Shown here piece after piece: positions 36,208-49,161 of a DNA stretch of 54,669 nt. The stretch's first letter is position 1; each line of letters opens with the position of its first letter. The DNA is from Rhodospirillales bacterium (GTDB lineage Bacteria > Pseudomonadota > Alphaproteobacteria > Rhodospirillales > Casp-alpha2), in contig JAPKAX010000002.1 of NCBI GenBank assembly GCA_028825025.1, positions 1 through 54,669 of the forward strand, written 5' to 3'. The notes beneath the pieces are model-generated. The model did not search any database. It had not been told where the DNA came from and saw only the letters and a program-made list of their open reading frames with translations. A program made the translations under genes and the position numbers.

Positions 36208-37848
36208 TCAAGTCGTGTAGCCTTCAAAAAGATCATCTGAAATATCAGATTTGCTTCGGTCTTTAGGGTTTCCATGCCCGCCGCCGCCTGCGGTTTCAAG
36301 CCGGATTATGTCACCGGTTTTCATGTTCAATCCAGCGACTTTTGAGGCTAGAATTTCTTCTGTATCAGAACCAGACCGGCGCATAATTAATTGTCCGACA
36401 CGCCCAGGTTCCCCACCCTCCAAACCATAAGGCGCTATTTTAAAGCGATCTAAGTTTGCGGCAAAAGTGCCTTCCGGGGCATCTAATCTAAATTCCCGAA
36501 CAAGACCTAATCCGCCTCTCGATTTTCCTTCACCACCGGAATTGGGGACCAGCCCGTATCGCAAAAAGGTCAGGGGATAATCGTTTTCGATCATCTCAAT
36601 CGGTGTGTTCGATATGTTATGAAAGCCACATGAAAATCCGTTGGCACCATCGCCATCCGGGTGACCACCCCAACCACCGCATTCCAGATCGAAATAAACT
36701 TGACGCGATCCGTCTGCGTTGTTGGCACTTAAGGCATAGGCATAACTTACCCCATAATAGCTGGCTGGAACGCGCTCTGGTACGGCTTGGGCAAAGGCTC
36801 CCATGACCGCATTCACAATGCGGTGCCCAACCGCCATCCGGTTGGCAACCGGCGCCGGGTGGCGGGCATTGACCACTGAACCCAGCGGCGCAATGACTGA
36901 AATTGGGCGGTAGCACCCGGCATTGGCCGGAACTTCACGACCAATCGCCATCAACGCGCCACATATGACGGCGGATCGGGTCATGTTAAAGGTGCAATTG
37001 ACCGGACCTTTAGCTTGGCTGCTGGATTGCGATAAATCAACTTCAACCGAATCATCGTCGACGATCAAGCGGGCATTGATCCTGAGCTTTCTGTCGAGCT
37101 CGATCCCATCGTCATCGACAAAGTCTTCGAACTCGTAAACGCCATTTGGAATTTCAGCAAACACGGCGCGGGTTTGGGTTTCCGATGCGGCTTGAATGCG
37201 CTCGCATGCATTTGCTAACCGCTCTGCTCCGTAGCGCTTTCCGATCCGCTGTAGGGTCAGCGCCCCTGTTTCCAATGCGGCTAATTGCGATGAGAAATCA
37301 CCGCCAACGTTGACGGGCTCGCGGGTGTTGGCCAGAAGCATTTTAACAACGGCTTCGTTGCGCTTTCCGCCTTCAACGATTTTTAAGGGTGGAATGCATA
37401 ATCCTTCTTGGTAGATTTCTGTCGCTTCGGCGTAATAGCTTCCGGGGGCGCCGCCGCCAACGTCCAGATGGTGAACCAGAATCCCCGCAATCGCGATCCG
37501 TCGGCCTTCATGAAAGACTGGGCGGAAGGTTTGAATGTCAGGTAAATGCTGGCCACCGCTGTAGGGGTCGTTGGTAATAATTACATCACCATCATGCCAT
37601 TCTGTAATGGGAATGTGATGATTGATCAAATCCTCCAAACAAGCCGCCATGGAATTTAGATGCACCGGCATGCGGGCGGCCTGAGCAACGCTTTGACCAT
37701 TGGCATCGAAAACGCAGGTAGAATAATCCAAAATTTCACGGACCACGGACGATCGGCTTGTGCGCCAAATGGTGACGCTCATTTCTTCAGCGGCTGAAAC
37801 CAAAGCGTTGCGGATGATCTCAATTTGGACGGCGTTTAAAGAACTCAT
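36208..37848 (-). CDS. hyuB: Hydantoinase B/oxoprolinase family protein
   Basis: 546 aa, MSVTIWRTSRSSVVREILDYSTCVFD, NDPYSGGQHLPDI, TAGGGGHGNP. Confidence 0.95.
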   Translation of the reverse strand: MSSLNAVQIEIIRNALVSAAEEMSVTIWRTSRSSVVREILDYSTCVFDANGQSVAQAARMPVHLNSMAACLEDLINHHIPITEWHDGDVIITNDPYSGGQHLPDIQTFRPVFHEGRRIAIAGILVHHLDVGGGAPGSYYAEATEIYQEGLCIPPLKIVEGGKRNEAVVKMLLANTREPVNVGGDFSSQLAALETGALTLQRIGKRYGAERLANACERIQAASETQTRAVFAEIPNGVYEFEDFVDDDGIELDRKLRINARLIVDDDSVEVDLSQSSSQAKGPVNCTFNMTRSAVICGALMAIGREVPANAGCYRPISVIAPLGSVVNARHPAPVANRMAVGHRIVNAVMGAFAQAVPERVPASYYGVSYAYALSANNADGSRQVYFDLECGGWGGHPDGDGANGFSCGFHNISNTPIEMIENDYPLTFLRYGLVPNSGGEGKSRGGLGLVREFRLDAPEGTFAANLDRFKIAPYGLEGGEPGRVGQLIMRRSGSDTEEILASKVAGLNMKTGDIIRLETAGGGGHGNPKDRSKSDISDDLFEGYTT

Positions 37849-39941
37849 GTGTCATCTCCGATACAAACGTTGGCTATTAATTCACCCGTTGCTTCGGGGG
37901 TCAAAGACCAGTCATGGGGAACCAAAATTGTTGAATGGGCTTCTTCAATGATCAGGGGGCCATATAAAAGAGTTCCCGTTTCAAGGGATGCGCGCTCAAT
38001 AATGGGGACATCATGCCAACGGCTTTGGCTGTAAATTCGGCGATGACCGCGGGGCTTTCCATCCCCTGATGCAATGTTGTTGGTTTTTGGTTTAGCCAAA
38101 GTGCCAATCGCACTCATCCGCAAATTAATGATCTCGGGTGTGGCAGACGTGTCGGAATGGGCGAACTGGGCTTGGTGTAGTTCGTGAAAAGTAGCGACGG
38201 CGCTTTCCAAATCATCGGTATTGATGAACGGGGTTGCGATCTCGTAAGCTTGACCTCTGTAGCGTAAATCGAGGGTGTAGGCGAGTTTTTGGTCTTTCTC
38301 CGCAATGCCGTCGGCGCTTAAGCGTTTAAGTCCTTCGGCACTTAATATGGCGATGGTTTTGGCGAGCTCTTCCTTCGCTCCCGCATCGGCGTTCATCAGC
38401 TGGGCACTAGTTAAATCGTGAGCAATATCGGCATATAACATTCCCCATGCGCTTAACGTTCCGGGATCACTTGGGAAGATCACCTGTTTCATATCAAGTT
38501 CTTTCGCTGTATCGCAGGCATGTAACCCGCCGGCTCCACCGAACGAAATTAAAGCAAAATCTTCTGGGTCGAGACCCTTTTCAAATAACGATAATCGGAT
38601 CGCGCTGGCCATATGTGCGACAGCAATCTGGGCAATGCCTTCCGCTGTTTCTTCAAGGTCTAGTTTTAAGGGCACAGCCACATCTGTGGTAACCGCTTGC
38701 TGTGCCGCTGTAGCATTTAAGCGCATGGCACCGCCTAGAAAATGGAGCGGGTCAATGCGCCCCAAAGTGACGTTGGCATCGGTTACAGTGGGGCGTTTGC
38801 CGCCCCGGTCATAACATGCTGGGCCGGGGGCAGCGCCCGCACTTTCTGGGCCTACGTATAACCCGCCCGCCGTATCTGTTCCGGCGATCGATCCGCCACC
38901 AGCACCAATGGTGCGCATTTCAACCATCGGCAAACGAACGGGGCATCCGTCGACCTCACCTTGGTTGACCTGATGAACGCGACCGTCTTCAACCAACGAT
39001 ACATCATAACTGGTGCCGCCCATATCGACGGCAACTAAGTTCAAACTGCCCAGCCTGTGAGCAATGGTTTCAGCCGCTTTTGCGCCGCCGCTTGGGCCTG
39101 ATAATAAAAGCCGGGCTGGATGACGTGCCGCCATTTTGGGTGTAGCAACACCGCCATTTGATTGCACCAAATAAACCGGAGCTGTCAGCCCATGATCGGT
39201 CAAGCGGGCTTCTAAGCGTTTCAAGTAATCGCCGACAACAGGCATTAATAAGGCGTTTAGAACGGTTGTTGATGTGCGCTCAAATTCACGAAATTCGGGG
39301 CTGATGTCTGATGAAATTGAGATCCGCATTTGGGGTAAGCATTGTTCAATGATTTGAGCGACACGGCGTTCATGTTCTGGGTTGGCATAAGAATGCAAAA
39401 GCGATACGGCTACCGTCTCAGCCCCACAATCGGTTAGCTGTTGGGCCAAGGCTTTAATATAGTCATCATTAAGCGCGCATTCGATGCTTCCATCGGCTTT
39501 TGTTCGTTCTTTCAAGCCAAACCGTCGTGATCGTGGAATTAATAAAGTGCGCTCTTCGGCTTTGTTGGCATAAACGTGAGTACGCAAATGGCGGCCTATT
39601 TCCAAAACATCTTCAAACCCGGCTGTGGTAATCAGTGCCCCGGTTGGTAATTTGCGCTCTAGAACTGCATTGGTGGCGATGGTTGTACCATGGATTAAGA
39701 TTGATATTTGATCGAAGCTGAAGCTAAACAGCTCGGCAGCTTCTTGTAAGCCGGTCAGCAACCCTTCTGATGGGTCACTTGGCGTTGTGGGCGTTTTGTG
39801 AGCATAATTGATGCCTGTCGCCTCGTTAAGAATTTGTAAGTCGGTGAAGGTACCACCGATATCAACGGCAATTCGGACGCTAGAACTTTGGCTTGTTGTT
39901 GGTTTGGTACTCATAACGGAAATGCGCTCCTGTTTATGCAA
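37845..39941 (-). CDS. hyuA: Hydantoinase A/oxoprolinase family protein
   Basis: 698 aa, VRIAVDIGGTFTDLQIL, HGTTIATNAVLERK, AVDMGGTSYDVSLV, SFGGAGGLHACD. Confidence 0.95.
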   Translation of the reverse strand: MHKQERISVMSTKPTTSQSSSVRIAVDIGGTFTDLQILNEATGINYAHKTPTTPSDPSEGLLTGLQEAAELFSFSFDQISILIHGTTIATNAVLERKLPTGALITTAGFEDVLEIGRHLRTHVYANKAEERTLLIPRSRRFGLKERTKADGSIECALNDDYIKALAQQLTDCGAETVAVSLLHSYANPEHERRVAQIIEQCLPQMRISISSDISPEFREFERTSTTVLNALLMPVVGDYLKRLEARLTDHGLTAPVYLVQSNGGVATPKMAARHPARLLLSGPSGGAKAAETIAHRLGSLNLVAVDMGGTSYDVSLVEDGRVHQVNQGEVDGCPVRLPMVEMRTIGAGGGSIAGTDTAGGLYVGPESAGAAPGPACYDRGGKRPTVTDANVTLGRIDPLHFLGGAMRLNATAAQQAVTTDVAVPLKLDLEETAEGIAQIAVAHMASAIRLSLFEKGLDPEDFALISFGGAGGLHACDTAKELDMKQVIFPSDPGTLSAWGMLYADIAHDLTSAQLMNADAGAKEELAKTIAILSAEGLKRLSADGIAEKDQKLAYTLDLRYRGQAYEIATPFINTDDLESAVATFHELHQAQFAHSDTSATPEIINLRMSAIGTLAKPKTNNIASGDGKPRGHRRIYSQSRWHDVPIIERASLETGTLLYGPLIIEEAHSTILVPHDWSLTPEATGELIANVCIGDDT

Positions 39942-40072
39942 CGTTAATCAACTTCAATGTTATTAGAACACCAAGCCTTGGTAAAGCGTATCAGGGCATT
40001 CGGCTTCTGGCGCAGAGCGTATTTCTATGATATCGAAGGGGTCACTATTCCTTTTTATCTATCGGAACCCAA

Positions 40073-40309
40073 ATGAAACTAATTGTTCTTAATCTACCGC
40101 GCGACTTTAGCCAAACGGACTTGGCCGCATTATTCGAAGCGTATGGAGACGTTAAAGTCTGTAATTTAGTTATGGATGAAGGAACTGCTGGATCAAAAGG
40201 CTTCGGTTTCGTAAATATGGCTCAACAACAAGATGCTGAAATTGCCATCGAAAAGTTGCACGGCAGTAAAGTTGGGAAAAACAAAATCCGTGTCAAAGTG
40301 GCTGATTAA
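40073..40309 (+). CDS. Single-RRM RNA-binding protein
   Basis: 78 aa, RNP2 LIVLNL and RNP1 KGFGFVNM. Confidence 0.92.
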   Translation: MKLIVLNLPRDFSQTDLAALFEAYGDVKVCNLVMDEGTAGSKGFGFVNMAQQQDAEIAIEKLHGSKVGKNKIRVKVAD

Positions 40310-40440
40310 CAGCCCCCTCCCTGACGCTGGTATCATTGCGTTTAAGCCGCAGCTTACTAAAATTCCAATCTACCACTATGTACATGCAAGTTAATCGCAC
40401 CTCACCAACAGAAACGGATAAGCTTTAAAGGAAATGATAA

Positions 40441-40578
40441 ATGAAGACGCGGTTCAGCAAATTAGATCGGCCTATTTTTGTGGACGTGGCTTCCAAATTG
40501 ACTAAGTTTCTCTGTTTAAATTGTGCTGATGGAAGAGAACTGGGTTTTTCGAACGGCACGACGCTCGCTTTCTATTGA
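40441..40578 (+). CDS. Putative 45-aa small protein
   Basis: ATG at 40441 preceded by AAAGGAAATGATAA; MKTRFSKLDRPIFVDVASKLTKFLCLNCADGRELGFSNGTTLAFY*; below the supplied ORF length cutoff. Confidence 0.35.
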   Translation: MKTRFSKLDRPIFVDVASKLTKFLCLNCADGRELGFSNGTTLAFY

Positions 40579-40690
40579 ACAGCATTTGCAATCTAGACGA
40601 CTAAGCTGTACTGACATAGAAGTTTGAGTTTAATAAAGAGCTTTTTTTGCCGCATCTTGTCAGGTCGCCGGCTTTTTGTGGTAGTTTTGT

Positions 40691-41563
40691 ATGTTTAAAA
40701 ATAATGCGATCTTCGGTATTTTACTCATGGTTCTAGCAACGGCTGCCTTAGCGAGCAAGGATGGGATTGTTAAGACCGTACTGGATCAAGTTGATCCGGT
40801 TCAAACGCTTTGGCTTCAATTCATTGGAACATTCGCGGTTATGGCTTTGATCTCAATGCCAAAGCATGGTTTGGCGGCAATTCTTCCGACGTCGCCGGTT
40901 AAGCAGTTTGTGCGGGGGGCGCTTAATGTCACAGCTATTTCAGCATTTTTTATGGCCCTGAAATATATTCCAATAGCTGATGCAACCGCGATGCTTTTGT
41001 TTGCTCCCATTGTAGTGACAATCTTGTCGCCATTTCTTTTAGGTGAGAAAATCGGCCCGTTACGGATCATCGCCGCCGCCTTCGGTTTTTGTGGCGTACT
41101 TACCATTCTTCGGCCCGGGTTTTCGGACGACCTGACTGGTTATTATTTTGGCCTTACAGCGGGTATTTTTTTGGGGCTCTTTTTTATTGCAAACAGGCGG
41201 CTGGCTGGGGCACAACATTATTTGTTGGATATTACGCATAATGCTATGATGGGTGCATTGGCTTTAACACCATTTATGTTCCTGATTTGGGAGCCGGTAC
41301 CGGCATCGCTAAACGTGAAAATGACGCTCATCGTTGCACTTGCCGTTATCGGGCAGGGGTTCATGATATCGTCGTTTAAATTTGCCCCCGCAGCCGTCAT
41401 ATCGCCGTACTCATACACGATGCTGATTTTCTCTGCGTTAATCGGGTATTTTGTATTCGACACGCTACCTGATGCTGTTAGCTGGATTGGAATGACGCTG
41501 ATTGTCGGGTCGGGTCTGTATATCGCGTACCGTGAACAGCGGCTTATGAAAAACCATAAATGA
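40691..41563 (+). CDS. EamA/DMT family transporter
   Basis: 290 aa, ~10 TM, two EamA repeats. Confidence 0.9.
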   Translation: MFKNNAIFGILLMVLATAALASKDGIVKTVLDQVDPVQTLWLQFIGTFAVMALISMPKHGLAAILPTSPVKQFVRGALNVTAISAFFMALKYIPIADATAMLLFAPIVVTILSPFLLGEKIGPLRIIAAAFGFCGVLTILRPGFSDDLTGYYFGLTAGIFLGLFFIANRRLAGAQHYLLDITHNAMMGALALTPFMFLIWEPVPASLNVKMTLIVALAVIGQGFMISSFKFAPAAVISPYSYTMLIFSALIGYFVFDTLPDAVSWIGMTLIVGSGLYIAYREQRLMKNHK

Positions 41564-41800
41564 GCCCCTCCTTAACAACACCCTTTGTCAACAAATAAAC
41601 ATAAAAGCGAGCTTTTCTCACACTTTTAATATTGGAGACGTCTTAAAGAATTATTTAGTCTTTGCAACTTCAATAGATTAAAGCATACATAGACTTCAAT
41701 TCTAAAAGTAATTTTTTTTGATCACAAACACGTATTCAATTGCTCAATTTCAAGAAATGCAGGCGGCCTTGCAACCAGTATGTATAAAGAAGAAAACTAG

Positions 41801-43993
41801 ATGAATAAAATGAAAGTGTCGGAAGTTATTAAAGGTGTTTACTGGTTGGAAATACCTGAAGCAGACCTTTTTATTCTTTGTGGATGTCCAGAGGATGTGA
41901 CCAAACATTTAATGCGCCTTAGCCTAATTGTTCCAACTGAACGGGACGGTGTCACTTTCGAGACGGGCCCGAATGCAATACTGCTTTCAGATGTCGCGTT
42001 GCAAAACGGAAAATTTTGTAACCTTGCGGAATTCCCTGTTCTTCAAATGCTTTATAACCAGGGAATGATAATTCCCAACCATCCCAACAATTCTGGAATT
42101 AAGCCTCTCCTTATCGGGGCTAAAGATCAAATTGATTCGCAGATGGAGTACATTTATAGAGGAAATTATGGCATGGTCTCGGAAGAGGAGATCATCGCCA
42201 CAGGCGAAACTCCCGAGCGCGCTAAAATGATCATGCGTATGAAGCTTAAATTCGCATTTGGGAAAATTCTTTCGTCTGATGAGTTATTAGATCACACAGT
42301 TGTGGGTGAGGAAACTGTTGAAGTTCGCAACGGCGTTTTTGTTGCCCGGACCAGAACCAACGTATTTGAATTTAGCTATGAGAATGAAAAAGTTACGATA
42401 GACCTTACAATAAAACGAGGCCGAAATGATCGATCGGCCTATCCATTAGGATTTCAAAGCATTCCCAGAGACTATTTCTCGGTCATCCATTCGGGCCAAG
42501 GCGATGGTTGGGACATCAATCGTCCATGCATGGCAAGTATTGTTATGTATCAGGGTAAAATCTACTTAATAGATGCTGGGCCAAATATAGCTTATAGCCT
42601 TACCGTTTTGGGTATCAGTATAAATGAAATCGAAGGTATTTTTCATACTCATTGCCATGACGATCACTTCGCTGGAATTACCAGCCTCATTCGCACAGAC
42701 AAGCGAATTAAGTATTACGCAACTCCATTGGTCCGCGCTTCTGTTTTCAAGAAACTTTCCGCATTACTGTCTATGGACGAAGATCGAATCTCCAATTTTT
42801 TTGAGATTATAGATCTGGAATTTGATACCTGGAACGACATTGGAGGTCTGGAAGTACGACCGTTTTTATCGCCTCATCCTGTAGAAACAAGCGCATTTAT
42901 TTTCAGGGTATTCTGGGAAAGCCGATATTTAACCTATGCGCACATGGCAGACATTGTTTCTCTCTCTGTTCTTGAGAACATGATTACCAGCGATGATGAT
43001 GCGCCCGGTATATCTCAGGAAGTTTTTGACAGTACAAAGGAACAATATTTAATCGAGGTTGATCTAAAGAAAATCGACATTGGCGGCGGCATGATACATG
43101 GAGAAATTGAGGATTTTGAAGACGATCAATCCGGCAAAATCGTTCTCGCTCACCGCTCGGTCCCGCTAACAAATAAACAAAAGGAAATCGGATCAAGTGC
43201 CCCTTTTGGGGTCGTTGACACGTTGGTTCCGGATGATTCAGGAAATCTCCGACGTTTCGCTTTTGCGTTTCTGAATATGTATTTTCAAAACCTAGATCGT
43301 CACTATCTAAGAACACTTCTCAACAATCCTATTGTCGAGTTTTCCCCTGGATCAATTATTCTACGCAAAGGCCGTACTCCTGAGAATATCTATCTAATCA
43401 TAACTGGTACCGTAGAAAAAATTAGATCTGACGACAATGTTTACAATATTATTTCAGCGGGCGGTTTGATTGGCGAATACACGGGAATTCACGGGCTTCC
43501 GTCCAAATCAGCCTATCGGACGATCAATTATGCGCGCGCACTACGTATTACGGCCCCCGCATACAAGGCGTTGATCGAGAAAAATAATCTAAGTGCATTA
43601 ATCAATGAACGGGCAAAAAACAGAGAAATATTAGAGCGTTCTTGGTTGTTTGGGGAATCAGTTTCTCCGCCGGTCTTAAACAAGATTGCCGATGTCATGA
43701 CTTTGCGCTCTTATGGTAAAAACAAGGATCTTAACGATTTATCAACGGACGCTATTTTTATCGTCGGTTCGGGTAGCTTAGAGCAAATACAGGGTCACCA
43801 CGTATCTGCCACAATTAGCCAACGCAACTTCTTTGGTGAGGAACAGGTATTATTTGGAGAAACCAACAAGTTCAAATATAGGACTGCCGAGCCCTGCCAG
43901 ATCTACGAAATTCCCAAAGAAGTGATCAATGAAGTACCAATCATTATGTGGAAAATGCTTGAATCATACGAATTCAGAAACCTAGAAAAGTGA
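41801..43993 (+). CDS. Metallo-beta-lactamase-fold protein with C-terminal cyclic-nucleotide-binding-like domains
   Basis: 730 aa; HTHCHDDHFAGI (HxHxDH), SPHPVETSAFIF, YAHMAD, IVLAHRS metal-ligand pattern; CNB-like stretches VEFSPGSIILRKGRTPENIYLIITGTVEKI...GGLIGEYTGI and RNFFGEEQVLFG. Confidence 0.8.
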   Translation: MNKMKVSEVIKGVYWLEIPEADLFILCGCPEDVTKHLMRLSLIVPTERDGVTFETGPNAILLSDVALQNGKFCNLAEFPVLQMLYNQGMIIPNHPNNSGIKPLLIGAKDQIDSQMEYIYRGNYGMVSEEEIIATGETPERAKMIMRMKLKFAFGKILSSDELLDHTVVGEETVEVRNGVFVARTRTNVFEFSYENEKVTIDLTIKRGRNDRSAYPLGFQSIPRDYFSVIHSGQGDGWDINRPCMASIVMYQGKIYLIDAGPNIAYSLTVLGISINEIEGIFHTHCHDDHFAGITSLIRTDKRIKYYATPLVRASVFKKLSALLSMDEDRISNFFEIIDLEFDTWNDIGGLEVRPFLSPHPVETSAFIFRVFWESRYLTYAHMADIVSLSVLENMITSDDDAPGISQEVFDSTKEQYLIEVDLKKIDIGGGMIHGEIEDFEDDQSGKIVLAHRSVPLTNKQKEIGSSAPFGVVDTLVPDDSGNLRRFAFAFLNMYFQNLDRHYLRTLLNNPIVEFSPGSIILRKGRTPENIYLIITGTVEKIRSDDNVYNIISAGGLIGEYTGIHGLPSKSAYRTINYARALRITAPAYKALIEKNNLSALINERAKNREILERSWLFGESVSPPVLNKIADVMTLRSYGKNKDLNDLSTDAIFIVGSGSLEQIQGHHVSATISQRNFFGEEQVLFGETNKFKYRTAEPCQIYEIPKEVINEVPIIMWKMLESYEFRNLEK

Positions 43994-44623
43994 ACATAAG
44001 ACAGAGTCTGAAAGATTGATTCACATTGTTAGTTTGAATAAACCTTGCCATGCCTGAAGCCGTCTAGGGGACGGATTAATGTAATATTGGTAAATGAGAA
44101 AACGTCCGCTTTGGGCTGCCATCTCAACTGTTCCTGATCAAGCTCGCATGTACAATATCATTTCAAAAATTGTGTTATGGGGTGCTAATCTTGATTTTTG
44201 TGTCGTCATAAATGGCTACTTCATACCGTGGTCAACAGGCAGGGCTATCGATATATATGAGCTGTTTACCTTCGAAGCATATACGGACGGTAAAACACGT
44301 TAATCCTAGCTAACACCCGTGGTTACCGGAATGCCGTCAACGATGGGTGGAATGAGCAACATGTTTAATCAGGGCTATCTGCATGACAGTGGTATGGTGA
44401 AAGCGATGTTAATCATTAGCAGAGTGTGGATTAGGGACAAGATTATGAGGGTATGAACTGTTAATAATATCAATCGCGACAATACTAAAAACGAATGTTA
44501 CAACTTAAAACTACATACCCTAAACCTTCTCAAACATTCTTACCGAACACACCTTTACATGGTAAATTTGACTGATTACGATTGTATGTGGAGTTAGCTA
44601 TCGGCAATACCGAGGAGGACGAA

Positions 44624-44837
44624 ATAAATATATTAGGAAGATTGAAGAAATCGACAGAGGTCTCTTTAGGTTTCAGCATAGTAGTTGTTCTTTTGCTACT
44701 TATCGCGATAGTAGGTTGTGCTCAAATCAACATGTAAATGATAAGACAATTTGCAAAAAAAACCATCAAAATAGTTTCTGAGGCACGAAACGTTCTTGTG
44801 CTCGATCACATGAATGTTATTGGTTCCAGATGCTAAG
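44624..44837 (+). pseudogene. N-terminal remnant of a methyl-accepting chemotaxis protein
   Basis: GGAGG then ATA at start position, INILGRLKKSTEVSLGFSIVVVLLLLIAIVGCAQINM*, then frame-shifted TIKIVSEARNVLVLDHMN...; typical MCP first TM and early sensor helix. Confidence 0.5.
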
Positions 44838-45009
44838 GGCTATACGGTCTATCCAAGTTTGGGTGTGTAAGCTCATTTAGTCTAAGTTTGCAGTTATATC
44901 TGTCCTCAATATTTGGGGGCGGATATAATCGGACTGCCAGATTTAACCTGCTTGACCATAATGATGTACATCAGATTTTCATACTGTCGCAAGTCAGATT
45001 TAAGCAGAG

Positions 45010-46353
45010 TCAAATCGAGGAAAGCATTTGCCCTAACGCAATCAGTTTTCCATCGGAAAAGGCGTTACCGACTAATTGTATGGAAACGGGTAGCCCGTGA
45101 TCAAGCGCTGGGATTGGGAAGGCGAGAGCGGGAAGACCCGCGGCGTTGGCGAGAGCCGTGAAGTCAGCTTGAGAGGCTGGTGCCGGTGAAACATGGGGGA
45201 AGGCGCGCTGCGGTGTGGTTGGCAAAATAATCGCGTCTAGACCCTGAAGTTCACGACAGACGCCCGATCGAACTTCACTCAGGCAACGATAAGCGGCAGC
45301 AACTTTAGAGCCGGGGGCTGTCCGACCATATGAAATCATATCTCGAAAACTATCAGAAAACCCGTCAGCATCCTTATCCAATGCGGCTCCGAGCAGATGC
45401 CCGGCCTCCGCTTCAGATATCAATAGACCCGCGCGCCGCAGTCGCGTCGGCTGCCATTCCGATAGATCCACCGACAAAGTTTGAATTCCAACGGCTTGGA
45501 TTGCAGAAAGCAAGTGATTGAAAGCAGCTTTTACTTCAGGCTCACAGTCGGCCAACAAGGTATCGTTCGGAACACCCAAAACGATGTCGCTCAAATTAGT
45601 GCTTGGTTGATGTGCTGTCCAACCGTCCGGAGCCCGACAGCTATCTATACAATCAGGATCGTATTTTGCAAGAACGCTTAAGGCCAGTGTAAGGTCAGTG
45701 CTGTTTGTAGCGATCGGTCCAATAGTGTCCAGGGTCCACGACAAATGAAACAACCCACGATTACTGATCAGCCCCGCGGTCGGCTTCAAACCCCACAAGC
45801 CACAATAGGCTGCAGGTATGCGAACGGAGCCCATGGTATCCGAACCAAGCGTAATCGGAACGATCCCGGCAGCTACAGTTGCGGCTGATCCGCCGCTTGA
45901 CCCCCCGGGTGTAAAGCCCGGTGCTAATGGGTTCTGGCATTGTCCCCAAAACGGATTGTCTGTGGTCCCACCAAGTGCACCTTCATGCATATTCAGGGTG
46001 CCCAGGATAATCGCTCCAGCTGATTGAAGGAGCTTTACAACAAAGGCGTCCTCAGTCGCAATACGATTTGAAAATGCGCGAATACCAGCCGTTGTCGCGA
46101 TGCCGTATCGTGCTATATTTCCCTTGATCGCAACTGGAATTCCATCCAGCGGGCCTAGGCTGTTGTCTCCCAATCGCCGTGCATCACTGGCTATCGCATC
46201 GGCACGGGCGGTCTCAGGTGTCGTCTCAATAAAAGCCTTTAACTGGGGATCTTTCTGGGCAATCTCATCGAACGCAGCATCAATCAACGCCAAGGCAGTT
46301 GTCCGGCCAGAGCAAAGTGCGTTGCTCAGGGTTATAGCAGTCGTTTCACTCAT
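45010..46353 (-). CDS. Amidase (amidase signature family)
   Basis: 447 aa, GIPVAIKGN, GFTPGGSSGGSAATVAAG, LGSDTMGSVRIPAAYCGLWGLKPT. Confidence 0.92.
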   Translation of the reverse strand: MSETTAITLSNALCSGRTTALALIDAAFDEIAQKDPQLKAFIETTPETARADAIASDARRLGDNSLGPLDGIPVAIKGNIARYGIATTAGIRAFSNRIATEDAFVVKLLQSAGAIILGTLNMHEGALGGTTDNPFWGQCQNPLAPGFTPGGSSGGSAATVAAGIVPITLGSDTMGSVRIPAAYCGLWGLKPTAGLISNRGLFHLSWTLDTIGPIATNSTDLTLALSVLAKYDPDCIDSCRAPDGWTAHQPSTNLSDIVLGVPNDTLLADCEPEVKAAFNHLLSAIQAVGIQTLSVDLSEWQPTRLRRAGLLISEAEAGHLLGAALDKDADGFSDSFRDMISYGRTAPGSKVAAAYRCLSEVRSGVCRELQGLDAIILPTTPQRAFPHVSPAPASQADFTALANAAGLPALAFPIPALDHGLPVSIQLVGNAFSDGKLIALGQMLSSI

Positions 46354-47798
46354 TTAACATGCGTCCGTTGATCAATCAGCCGGATCGGCTTTTGCCTACT
46401 TTCAATCTGAGTCAAGTCTGCAAGAGCCCCGGGGTCAGCCAATTTTACAGTGATATCAACGCCCAATCGAGTTCGCAACAGTGCTTCAAACGCCTCGACT
46501 GAGGCAGAGGTATCACCGCGTGTTTCTATCATTACGGTCAGGTCCTCCCGACCTTCTTTTCGTTTCAGCATACAAATGTATTCGCTGCTTAACTCAGCAT
46601 GGTTTTCGGTCAGAATGGCTCCGATACCAGTCGGAAAGATATTAATCCCCCGCAGCTTCACCATATTGTCGCTTCGCCCCTGAAACCCAGCTATTCGACG
46701 CAGGTTAATATCAAGCGGCGAACCATCCAATCGAAAGGCCGAGACGTCATGTGTATTAAAACGGATGATTGGAAAAATATCGTCTTTATAAAGGCACGTA
46801 CATACCATATTGCCACTCATGCCGTCATCGACCGGTCGACCACTATCAATATCAAGAATTTCAATGAATTGAGCATCTTCTTGGACATAAAGGCCCGCAT
46901 GGTCTGGACCCTCACCAGCAATCGCTCCAGTATCACCGACCCCATACCAGTCAAAGACCTCAGCGCCGCCCCAAGCTTCGGACATAGCGCTATGGCTTTC
47001 GGCACCAATATGACCGGAAATCGTGCCAATTTTAATATCGTGACCGGGCTCTAATCCGGCCGCTCGGGCGACTTCGGAAAGGTGCTTGATATAATCTCCA
47101 AAGCCCAAAAGAACGTTTGTTCCAAAGGCTTTCATAAGATCAACTTGATTGGCAGAACGCGTTTCCACCCCCGTACCTGCCGAAAGAAAGTGCGCCCCAA
47201 TCCAGTGCAATATGGTTTCGCGAACATAATGACCACCATTGACCAACCCATGTCCGTAGACAGAATGCACAACATCGTCGCGGTTAATTCCCTGCAACGC
47301 ATATAATCGTGCCAAAAGAAGGTTTTGAATTTCCCTGCTTTTCGGCCCGTACAAAAGCGGTTGTGGCCGACCGGTTGTTCCGGTGGTTGTTTGAAATATC
47401 AGTGGTGGGCGCATTTCCGGGGTATAAGCTTCAAGGCCATGAAAATCGCCCATTGGTGGGTGTAACTCGACTGAAATCATCAAATCACTTTTCGAATAGA
47501 CCGGCAAACGCGTGATATCGTCAAGCGAGCGGATGTCACCATGCTCAATGCCCTGAGCGCCCCACAGTCGTTGATAAAAAGGTACCTTCCATGCAAAATC
47601 CATAACGTGTTTAAACCGTTTATTCTGGAGCGCCCTCAGCTCATCCCGGCTCAGTCGCTTGAAGCGCTCGACAAAATCTTCAGGGCGGCCATATTCGGCG
47701 ATAAGCGTCGGATAGTCGACGGCATCGAAATAATTTAACTGCGTCATCCGTGAAATTATCCTTGTTTTGCGAAGGTCATGAATTTCTAGTCGGTGCAT
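46350..47798 (-). CDS. Phenylacetate-CoA ligase-like adenylate-forming enzyme
   Basis: 482 aa PaaK-like, FQTTTGTTGRPQPLLYG, FDWYGVGDTGAIAGEG, GRSDNMVKLRGINIFP; start may be 47749 (MTQLNYFD). Confidence 0.88.
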   Translation of the reverse strand: MHRLEIHDLRKTRIISRMTQLNYFDAVDYPTLIAEYGRPEDFVERFKRLSRDELRALQNKRFKHVMDFAWKVPFYQRLWGAQGIEHGDIRSLDDITRLPVYSKSDLMISVELHPPMGDFHGLEAYTPEMRPPLIFQTTTGTTGRPQPLLYGPKSREIQNLLLARLYALQGINRDDVVHSVYGHGLVNGGHYVRETILHWIGAHFLSAGTGVETRSANQVDLMKAFGTNVLLGFGDYIKHLSEVARAAGLEPGHDIKIGTISGHIGAESHSAMSEAWGGAEVFDWYGVGDTGAIAGEGPDHAGLYVQEDAQFIEILDIDSGRPVDDGMSGNMVCTCLYKDDIFPIIRFNTHDVSAFRLDGSPLDINLRRIAGFQGRSDNMVKLRGINIFPTGIGAILTENHAELSSEYICMLKRKEGREDLTVMIETRGDTSASVEAFEALLRTRLGVDITVKLADPGALADLTQIESRQKPIRLIDQRTHVK

Positions 47799-49161
47799 TC
47801 GTTTCGATCAGGCGCATAGCACAAATCAGTGCCTGTGCGGAACCTTTTTTAGCAAGCCCCAAGGTTGCATTAAGAAGTTTATTTTGAGCATCTGCGGGTA
47901 TCTTGGCCCACGTCGACATGGTGCGAAACTTAGCAATTACAGCCTCTTCGCTCATTGGGTTTTCACTGTCGCCCCAAGCGTCTAAAACGTCCGCTTTAAT
48001 CAATTCGCCATCAGCAAGTTCAATCAAAATTTCTGCCCCAAAATGAGCGGGGTATGCATTAGAAAACCCCTCCCCCTCCGTGATATGGATGAGCTGCCTG
48101 AGCTCTGAATAAGTAGTATGTTCTGAAGGCTCGAATGCCTCCAGCTTCGGCGGCCCATCCAAAAGTGCTACAGCTACCGCGTGCTGTAGGCTAAACATGG
48201 CCTCTGCTGTGGTTTGCGGATTGGGCTTGTCGCAAAATATAATTGCATCACCAAAAGTTCGGATTTCGACCCGTTTCGGCACGCCACCACATAGCTGTTG
48301 ACGCAGGATCAAAGCGGCATCGATGGAAGGGTGGGTATGGCGGCAGGCGGGCCAAGGCTTGAAGCTGGTGTCATTGATTTGCCAAGGGCGGTTGGTGTCT
48401 TCAGTTACTGAAGCCGCCGAGCCTCCTTTGGCTATTGCGGTAAAATACCCTTGGGGGCCTTCAAGCACAAACCGCGGCCCCGCCAGCCCAGCTTGCGCAA
48501 ATCGTGCGGCTTGAAACCCGCGTCGTGCTGTCTCTGCAACATGTAAATGCTTGGTCGCAACGGGTTCATGTCGACATTGCCAAAGCCCCCCGGCAAGAGA
48601 CGTTGCGTGGCCAATGGCTGAAGTGGTTTGCTGTTGTGAAAGCCCCAACAGATGCGAAGCGGCAACGGCAGCACCTAATCCACCACAGGTGGCCGTATTA
48701 TGGAAAAATTCATAGTGACCCTTCCCGACAGCGGCACCAAACCGGATCATAGCTTCATATCCTTTAATAATAGCCCCAAGAATCCGTTCTGGCGTCAATT
48801 GATCCCTGTTTGAGCCTAAGACGACCGGCATAATAACCGGGCCGGGATGTAAAAGTGCCGTGCGATGGACGTCGTCCATTTCAAGAATACTCCCCAATCC
48901 CCCCATCGCCAAAATGGCGTCGGGGCGGCCCGATCCCACACCACCGAAGGGATGTGACGTTGAGCCCGCGCCGATGGAGATTAATTTACCGGTTTCTGTC
49001 TCATAGCCTGCCAAGGCGCAGCCCAGCCAATCCAACAGATGCAAAGCAGCTTGATTTCGATCTGCCTGAGTTATTGGGCGCGCTAATATTTTCATCAACG
49101 TTTCGCTGACCGAGACCAAAGGAGGAGCAGAATTCTTTTGCTGGCTCATGGGACCAATCAT
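47776..49161 (-). CDS. MmgE/PrpD family protein
   Basis: 461 aa, LLDWLGCALAGYETE, EMDDVHRTALLHPGPVIMPVVL, WPACRHTHPSIDAAL. Confidence 0.9.
   Translation of the reverse strand: MIGPMSQQKNSAPPLVSVSETLMKILARPITQADRNQAALHLLDWLGCALAGYETETGKLISIGAGSTSHPFGGVGSGRPDAILAMGGLGSILEMDDVHRTALLHPGPVIMPVVLGSNRDQLTPERILGAIIKGYEAMIRFGAAVGKGHYEFFHNTATCGGLGAAVAASHLLGLSQQQTTSAIGHATSLAGGLWQCRHEPVATKHLHVAETARRGFQAARFAQAGLAGPRFVLEGPQGYFTAIAKGGSAASVTEDTNRPWQINDTSFKPWPACRHTHPSIDAALILRQQLCGGVPKRVEIRTFGDAIIFCDKPNPQTTAEAMFSLQHAVAVALLDGPPKLEAFEPSEHTTYSELRQLIHITEGEGFSNAYPAHFGAEILIELADGELIKADVLDAWGDSENPMSEEAVIAKFRTMSTWAKIPADAQNKLLNATLGLAKKGSAQALICAMRLIETNAPTRNS

Follow-up and report, generated by a model that had tools for sequence, protein, structure and literature searches.

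The window analysed here, a 54,669 nucleotide stretch of a Rhodospirillales genome, encodes a 730-residue protein (41801..43993, + strand) with four domains predicted in the order pseudo-metallo-beta-lactamase (pseudo-MBL), active-type MBL and two cyclic nucleotide-binding (CNB) domains, the fold of the N-terminal one being probable. The protein belongs to what is apparently a genuine, widespread and undescribed bacterial family, and the best explanation of it, with about an even chance of being right, is that it is a candidate regulated metallo-phosphodiesterase of class II (RNase Z/Apyc1-like) acting in the nucleotide signalling of chemotactic bacteria. It would then be a cytoplasmic signalling enzyme with the second MBL domain as its output, a putative phosphodiesterase with a dinuclear metal site, of the class II, RNase Z or Apyc1 type, whose substrate is probably a signal derived from a nucleotide. 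As in long tRNase Z, the N-terminal MBL domain, which lacks metal, would serve as a partner for structure or for substrate binding, and the tandem CNB domains would gate activity through a non-canonical small molecule, for example a nucleoside as in the trypanosome PKA regulatory subunit (PKA-R), or alternatively might be pure structural transmitters. An effector-gated hydrolase or signalling protein had been suggested in the original prediction, and that suggestion is consistent with the predicted structure, with what is conserved across the family and with the gene contexts of relatives.

The gene, its metallo-beta-lactamase domain and the N-terminal module

The frame starts with ATG, aligns at full length across 62 sequences and was modelled with AlphaFold2 from those sequences at a pLDDT of 91.3 and a pTM of 0.91. 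Comparison with the 95% identical homologue of the nearest relative (L001) gave a dN/dS of 0.10 and the frame is therefore a gene under purifying selection; by part, the ratio was ~0.09-0.10 in the N-terminal and MBL domains, 0.06 in CNB1 and 0.24 in CNB2. The flanks are, as predicted, apparently non-coding, with no long coding frame and only short chance ORFs in the 237 bp upstream and 1016 bp downstream. A membrane-helix-like frame of ~37 residues, terminated by a stop (44624-44737), resembles by eye the start of a chemoreceptor (MCP), and the spacer that holds it recurs in L001 at 86% identity and is missing in two further genomes of the genus. The flanks carry little weight, as does the chemoreceptor remnant because it is common to the nearest relative only.

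The active-type MBL domain occupies residues 223-478 (42467..43234, + strand) and was assigned from Pfam (Lactamase_B at residues 245-360, E 7e-8), from its invariant ligands and from PDB and NCBIfam profile matches. All seven metal ligands are identical in 62/62 aligned relatives, so that the full ligand set read from the window holds throughout the family. They comprise the four of the HxHxDH motif, H284-C-H286-D-D288-H289 (42650..42667), in which C285 varies, together with H359, the third site-1 His (42875..42877), D384, the bridging Asp (42950..42952), and H451, the site-2 His (43151..43153), all on the + strand. The best-scoring PDB sequence was the phosphodiesterase Apyc1 (2e-8), with ELAC1/RNase Z among others, and RNase_Z was the top NCBIfam profile, matching 48/48 members tested at scores far below its cut-off. 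A weak match of the family to a cyclic-nucleotide-degrading phosphodiesterase profile was also seen. From the sequence, the most economical reading is that the domain is a candidate Zn-type phosphodiesterase. The caveat to be applied to this reading is that every curated NCBIfam MBL family has a cut-off far above the score of the domain, which reached 44 against 293 bits for RNase Z, and that the curated Apyc1 cut-off (PF23023) was likewise missed, at 22.8 against 50 bits. MBL-fold proteins carry out many chemistries, lactonase, thioesterase and redox among them, and this variety counts against the explanation preferred here, as do the low scores. Apyc1, RNase Z and other class II MBL phosphodiesterases share the HxHxDH...H...D...H pattern and are among the best matches of the domain (PMC9117128); they differ in having no CNB domains.

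The original prediction had noted an extended N-terminal module. Such a module is present at residues 1-222 (41801..42466, + strand), but the models suggest that it is itself probably a degenerate, metal-less MBL domain. Residues 1-222 matched no family in Pfam and no sequence in the PDB. Modelled alone with AlphaFold2 they gave a pLDDT of 88 and a pTM of 0.84, and Foldseek matches in the PDB were almost all of MBL fold (arylsulfatase, RNase J, PNGM-1, PqsE, RNase Z, ELAC1, B3 lactamases and ELAC2), singly weak but consistent, with a best E of 7e-3 (prob 0.99) and TM by query of 0.3-0.43. By eye the strand ILLSD at residues 60-64 stands where FHTHCHDDH would be, and the metal ligands of this domain are therefore gone; its invariant residues in the 62-sequence alignment are C27, P30, D32, K35, E77, H94, R120 and R183. 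Internal duplication found no support, a profile comparison of the N-terminal and MBL domains having given no signal, so the argument for a pseudo-MBL is one of fold.

Long-form tRNase Z (ELAC2) joins a degenerate N-terminal MBL domain to an active C-terminal one, a layout that the window protein may share, and the fold matches of its own N-terminal domain (TM ~0.4) include ELAC2. ELAC2 differs in having neither CNB nor hemerythrin domains, and the two halves of the window protein show no mutual sequence signal. Such a tandem fold, with the first rank of RNase_Z in all 48 members, would suit an RNA-processing enzyme of tRNase Z type under CNB control, a reading that is nevertheless very improbable, as the RNase Z score lies far under the cut-off and a signalling architecture spread patchily through chemotactic genomes is unlike that of a housekeeping RNase.

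CNB domains and the phosphate-cassette arginine

Pfam, AlphaFold2 and Foldseek agree on the two C-terminal CNB-like domains of the original prediction, and structure prediction gave a CNB fold in the C-terminal part. CNB1 comprises residues 479-618 (43235..43654, + strand; Pfam, AlphaFold2 and Foldseek) and CNB2 residues 619-730 (43655..43990, + strand; AlphaFold2 and Foldseek). Two stretches matched Pfam cNMP_binding, the best at 512-595 with a family E of 4e-16 and above the gathering score; the CNB superfamily (PF00027) scored 59 against a gathering score of 27.5 bits and the CNB fold was recovered too. In Foldseek the C-terminal part aligned with regulatory subunits of PKA, trypanosome PKA-R included, at a TM of ~0.45 by target.

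The CNB1 equivalent of the phosphate-binding cassette (PBC) is GEYTGIHGLPSKSAYRT (43472..43522, + strand), located by alignment, residue counts and a control search, in which P-S stands in place of P-R and the spacing GE-x7-P-x-x-x-T-Y-R fits a canonical PBC. Its CNB2 counterpart (43835..43885, + strand), located by alignment and residue counts, has no Arg at position 689. At position 568, the Arg site of CNB1, Ser was found in 34, Ala in 11, Val in 5 and Leu in 4 of the 62 sequences, and the eight commonest residues (S/A/V/L/T/P/M/C), R not among them, account for 60/62; at position 689, the Arg site of CNB2, R occurs in 5/62 only. The missing PRxA Arg noted for the window protein is thus a property of the family. 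A control search was seeded with a canonical CNB-EAL protein encoded beside one family gene (L123), which keeps a PRSAT cassette unlike the family CNBs; the Arg cassette pattern fitted 3/131 family CNB domains against 4/6 other domains, the latter four including the seed and its own copy. With the Arg lost from both CNBs across the family, cAMP or cGMP is on sequence grounds an unlikely ligand, which is consistent with the doubt first expressed about these nucleotides.

Trypanosomatid PKA-R has lost the same PBC Arg, is cAMP-independent and binds nucleosides (PMC10959531); its likeness to the family lies in the tandem CNBs, the replacement of the Arg by a polar residue and the Foldseek match. 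It differs in that the Glu which trypanosome PKA-R uses, at the A202-equivalent position, is not conserved in the MBL-CNB family, for which no partner kinase is known. Because that Glu is not conserved, a nucleoside ligand is, by this analogy, a lead only.

The closest working precedent, compared by published description, would be Dictyostelium GbpA (PdeD) and GbpB (PdeE), MBL phosphodiesterases of class IIb that cyclic nucleotides switch on through two downstream CNBs (PMC11988041, PMC3188802). In these intracellular proteins of chemotaxis cyclic-nucleotide circuits an MBL domain with HCHxDH is likewise followed by two CNBs, and the precedent lowers the novelty of the layout. No paper on the family itself was found in the literature searched. 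The shared layout and motif, and the weak match of the cyclic-nucleotide-degrading profile, favour an alternative in which the family is a bacterial cNMP-activated cNMP phosphodiesterase, its CNBs binding cAMP and its MBL domain destroying it in feedback with an adenylate cyclase. This is an unlikely alternative: the CNBs of GbpA/GbpB bind and respond to cGMP/cAMP, whereas the phosphate-binding Arg, a sequence proxy for such binding, is missing in the two CNBs of almost every family member. No hemerythrin has been described in GbpA/GbpB, unlike in most family members. What is new is the bacterial family, with its degenerate CNBs, probable pseudo-MBL, hemerythrin and magnetotactic link.

Extent of the family and its variable inputs

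Homologues with the full layout were found in 43/150 genomes of the order, 56/399 from a phylum sample, 5/289 from a class sample and a single SAR324 MAG; none was found in the plasmid or phage records searched. A search with the N-terminal domain only led back to those 43 genomes of the order, without any stand-alone copy, the sole short matches being two fragments in two of them. The domain occurs solely in the full protein, which makes the four-domain core an indivisible family with sharp boundaries. Outside its own clade, identity to the window protein in the full-length alignment is ~45-53%, and conservation is highest in the N-terminal and MBL domains and lowest in CNB2.

A C-terminal hemerythrin domain with a near-invariant diiron ligand set is carried by 41/62 members and by none of the five in the window's clade; one further member (L082) has an N-terminal receiver (REC) domain besides hemerythrin. 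The hemerythrin label, which missed three divergent hemerythrins, took ~10 changes on the tree against 19 in shuffles. As read from the sequences, an unvarying core combined with changing inputs (Hr, REC) is what one expects of a constant output module. By comparison with bacterial hemerythrin sensors (DcrH etc.), the C-terminal hemerythrin is a likely second input for O2 or redox in most relatives (PMC13401364), with the receiver a further one in a single case; the hemerythrin differs from those sensors in that its partner is an MBL/CNB core and not an MCP. The copy in the window, without hemerythrin, may have lost it or never had it and would rely on CNB input alone. No published description of an MBL, CNB and hemerythrin architecture was found in the literature searched.

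Two members were irregular. The L119 homologue has ~400 extra N-terminal residues with no Pfam family match, and that of L096 (G787) is broken by an in-frame TAG, likely a pseudogene or sequencing error.

Genomic contexts, chemotaxis and magnetotaxis

The neighbours of the window gene are by eye metabolic, an EamA-like transporter upstream and an amidase with further catabolic genes downstream, and no signalling neighbour was found within 5 kb, which counts against the phosphodiesterase explanation. The region 37845-49161 resembles by eye a catabolic cluster of hydantoinase-like, EamA-like transporter, amidase, ligase-like and MmgE/PrpD-like genes. A clean operon partner was sought for the window's clade and none was found; neighbours differ even among near relatives. 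In L002 and L004 a conserved ORF of ~83-88 aa, absent from the window, lies just upstream of the homologue.

Elsewhere the neighbours include histidine kinases, GGDEF/EAL proteins and MCPs. A signalling gene lies within 500 bp of 17/59 family genes against 26/166 random genes of the same genomes (OR ~2, p 0.02), and a cyclase within 4 kb of 6/59 against 4/166 background genes (p 0.02), p values that come from several comparisons and are uncorrected. Strong enrichment was rejected, the OR being only ~2, and this weakness too counts against the preferred explanation. A survey of homologues and their neighbours had been proposed, and it placed hemerythrin within the protein itself and MCPs and cyclases beside some relatives. 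A divergent class III cyclase lies beside the family gene in L008 and L010 and close by in L073, others belong to the cluster described below, and the window genome has several class III cyclases of its own; all of these, with the cyclase counts, would suit the cAMP feedback alternative. In L101, L113 and L123 a histidine kinase follows the family gene and CNB-EAL genes with a canonical PRSAT lie upstream, as do GGDEF genes in L101 and L123. An anti-phage defence reading was dropped, PADLOC having given weak CNB-level matches only.

ODP has an MBL fold, and flavo-diiron proteins carry Glu at the second ligand (HxExDH). The ODP of T. denticola is an oxygen sensor for chemotaxis and is genetically coupled to an MCP (PMC7666581), a precedent for reading the MBL domain as an O2/iron-binding diiron site, a sensor feeding chemoreceptors rather than a hydrolase. 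The hemerythrin of most relatives and the MCPs that adjoin the family gene in L070, L087 and L126 fit such a sensor. It is nonetheless quite improbable, given that the second ligand is His in 62/62 sequences rather than the Glu of the flavo-diiron and ODP motif, that the best PDB match is a phosphodiesterase and that the window copy has neither hemerythrin nor an intact MCP neighbour.

Within the order MCPs were found in 43/43 family-positive and 84/107 family-negative genomes (p 2.7e-4), and the positive genomes had more MCP candidates apiece; phylogeny and genome size are confounders of such genome-level associations. The same order yielded MtxA, proposed for magnetotaxis from an operon with signalling genes (PMC4439547), in 10/43 family-positive against 0/107 family-negative genomes (p 1.6e-6), lineage being a confounder. 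By coordinates a family member lies 6-8 kb from MtxA in 8/10 of these genomes, and by position the gene cluster described next is present in 8/10. Outside the class MtxA was present in 41/54 family-positive genomes and magnetochrome (PF18509) in 29/31 tested, and within the order magnetochrome was found in 18/35 family-positive against 1/14 family-negative genomes. In magnetospirillum-like genomes the cluster runs mtxA, CHASE2-adenylate cyclase, TPR-CHAT and, last, the MBL-CNB family gene; Pfam names were checked in L112, and the order is the same, judged by cyclase match and spacing, in L102, L109, L114 and L124. The TPR-CHAT protein is of ~1220-1370 aa, and its gene overlaps or nearly touches the family gene in L102, L112, L114 and L124, with L109 similar. 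Neither MtxA nor magnetochrome was found in the window genome, and magnetotaxis is therefore not the window protein's own role.

The presence of Arg-less CNBs on a metallohydrolase that is still intact suggests an enzyme gated by a ligand, and the family is a possible bacterial counterpart of GbpA/GbpB that may serve motility or energy taxis. A bolder proposal, which is unlikely, is of an output module made of a metal-less MBL, an active MBL phosphodiesterase and a pair of CNBs whose ligand is now non-cyclic, mostly with hemerythrin, by which magnetotactic and other microaerophilic chemotactic bacteria would turn their O2/redox and nucleotide status into a second-messenger change. Given how commonly the family occurs in magnetotactic lineages, and its tie to mtxA in some of them, it is a candidate O2/redox-nucleotide link in magneto-aerotaxis, and if the proposal is true this unnamed enzyme family would be a missing link in that behaviour.
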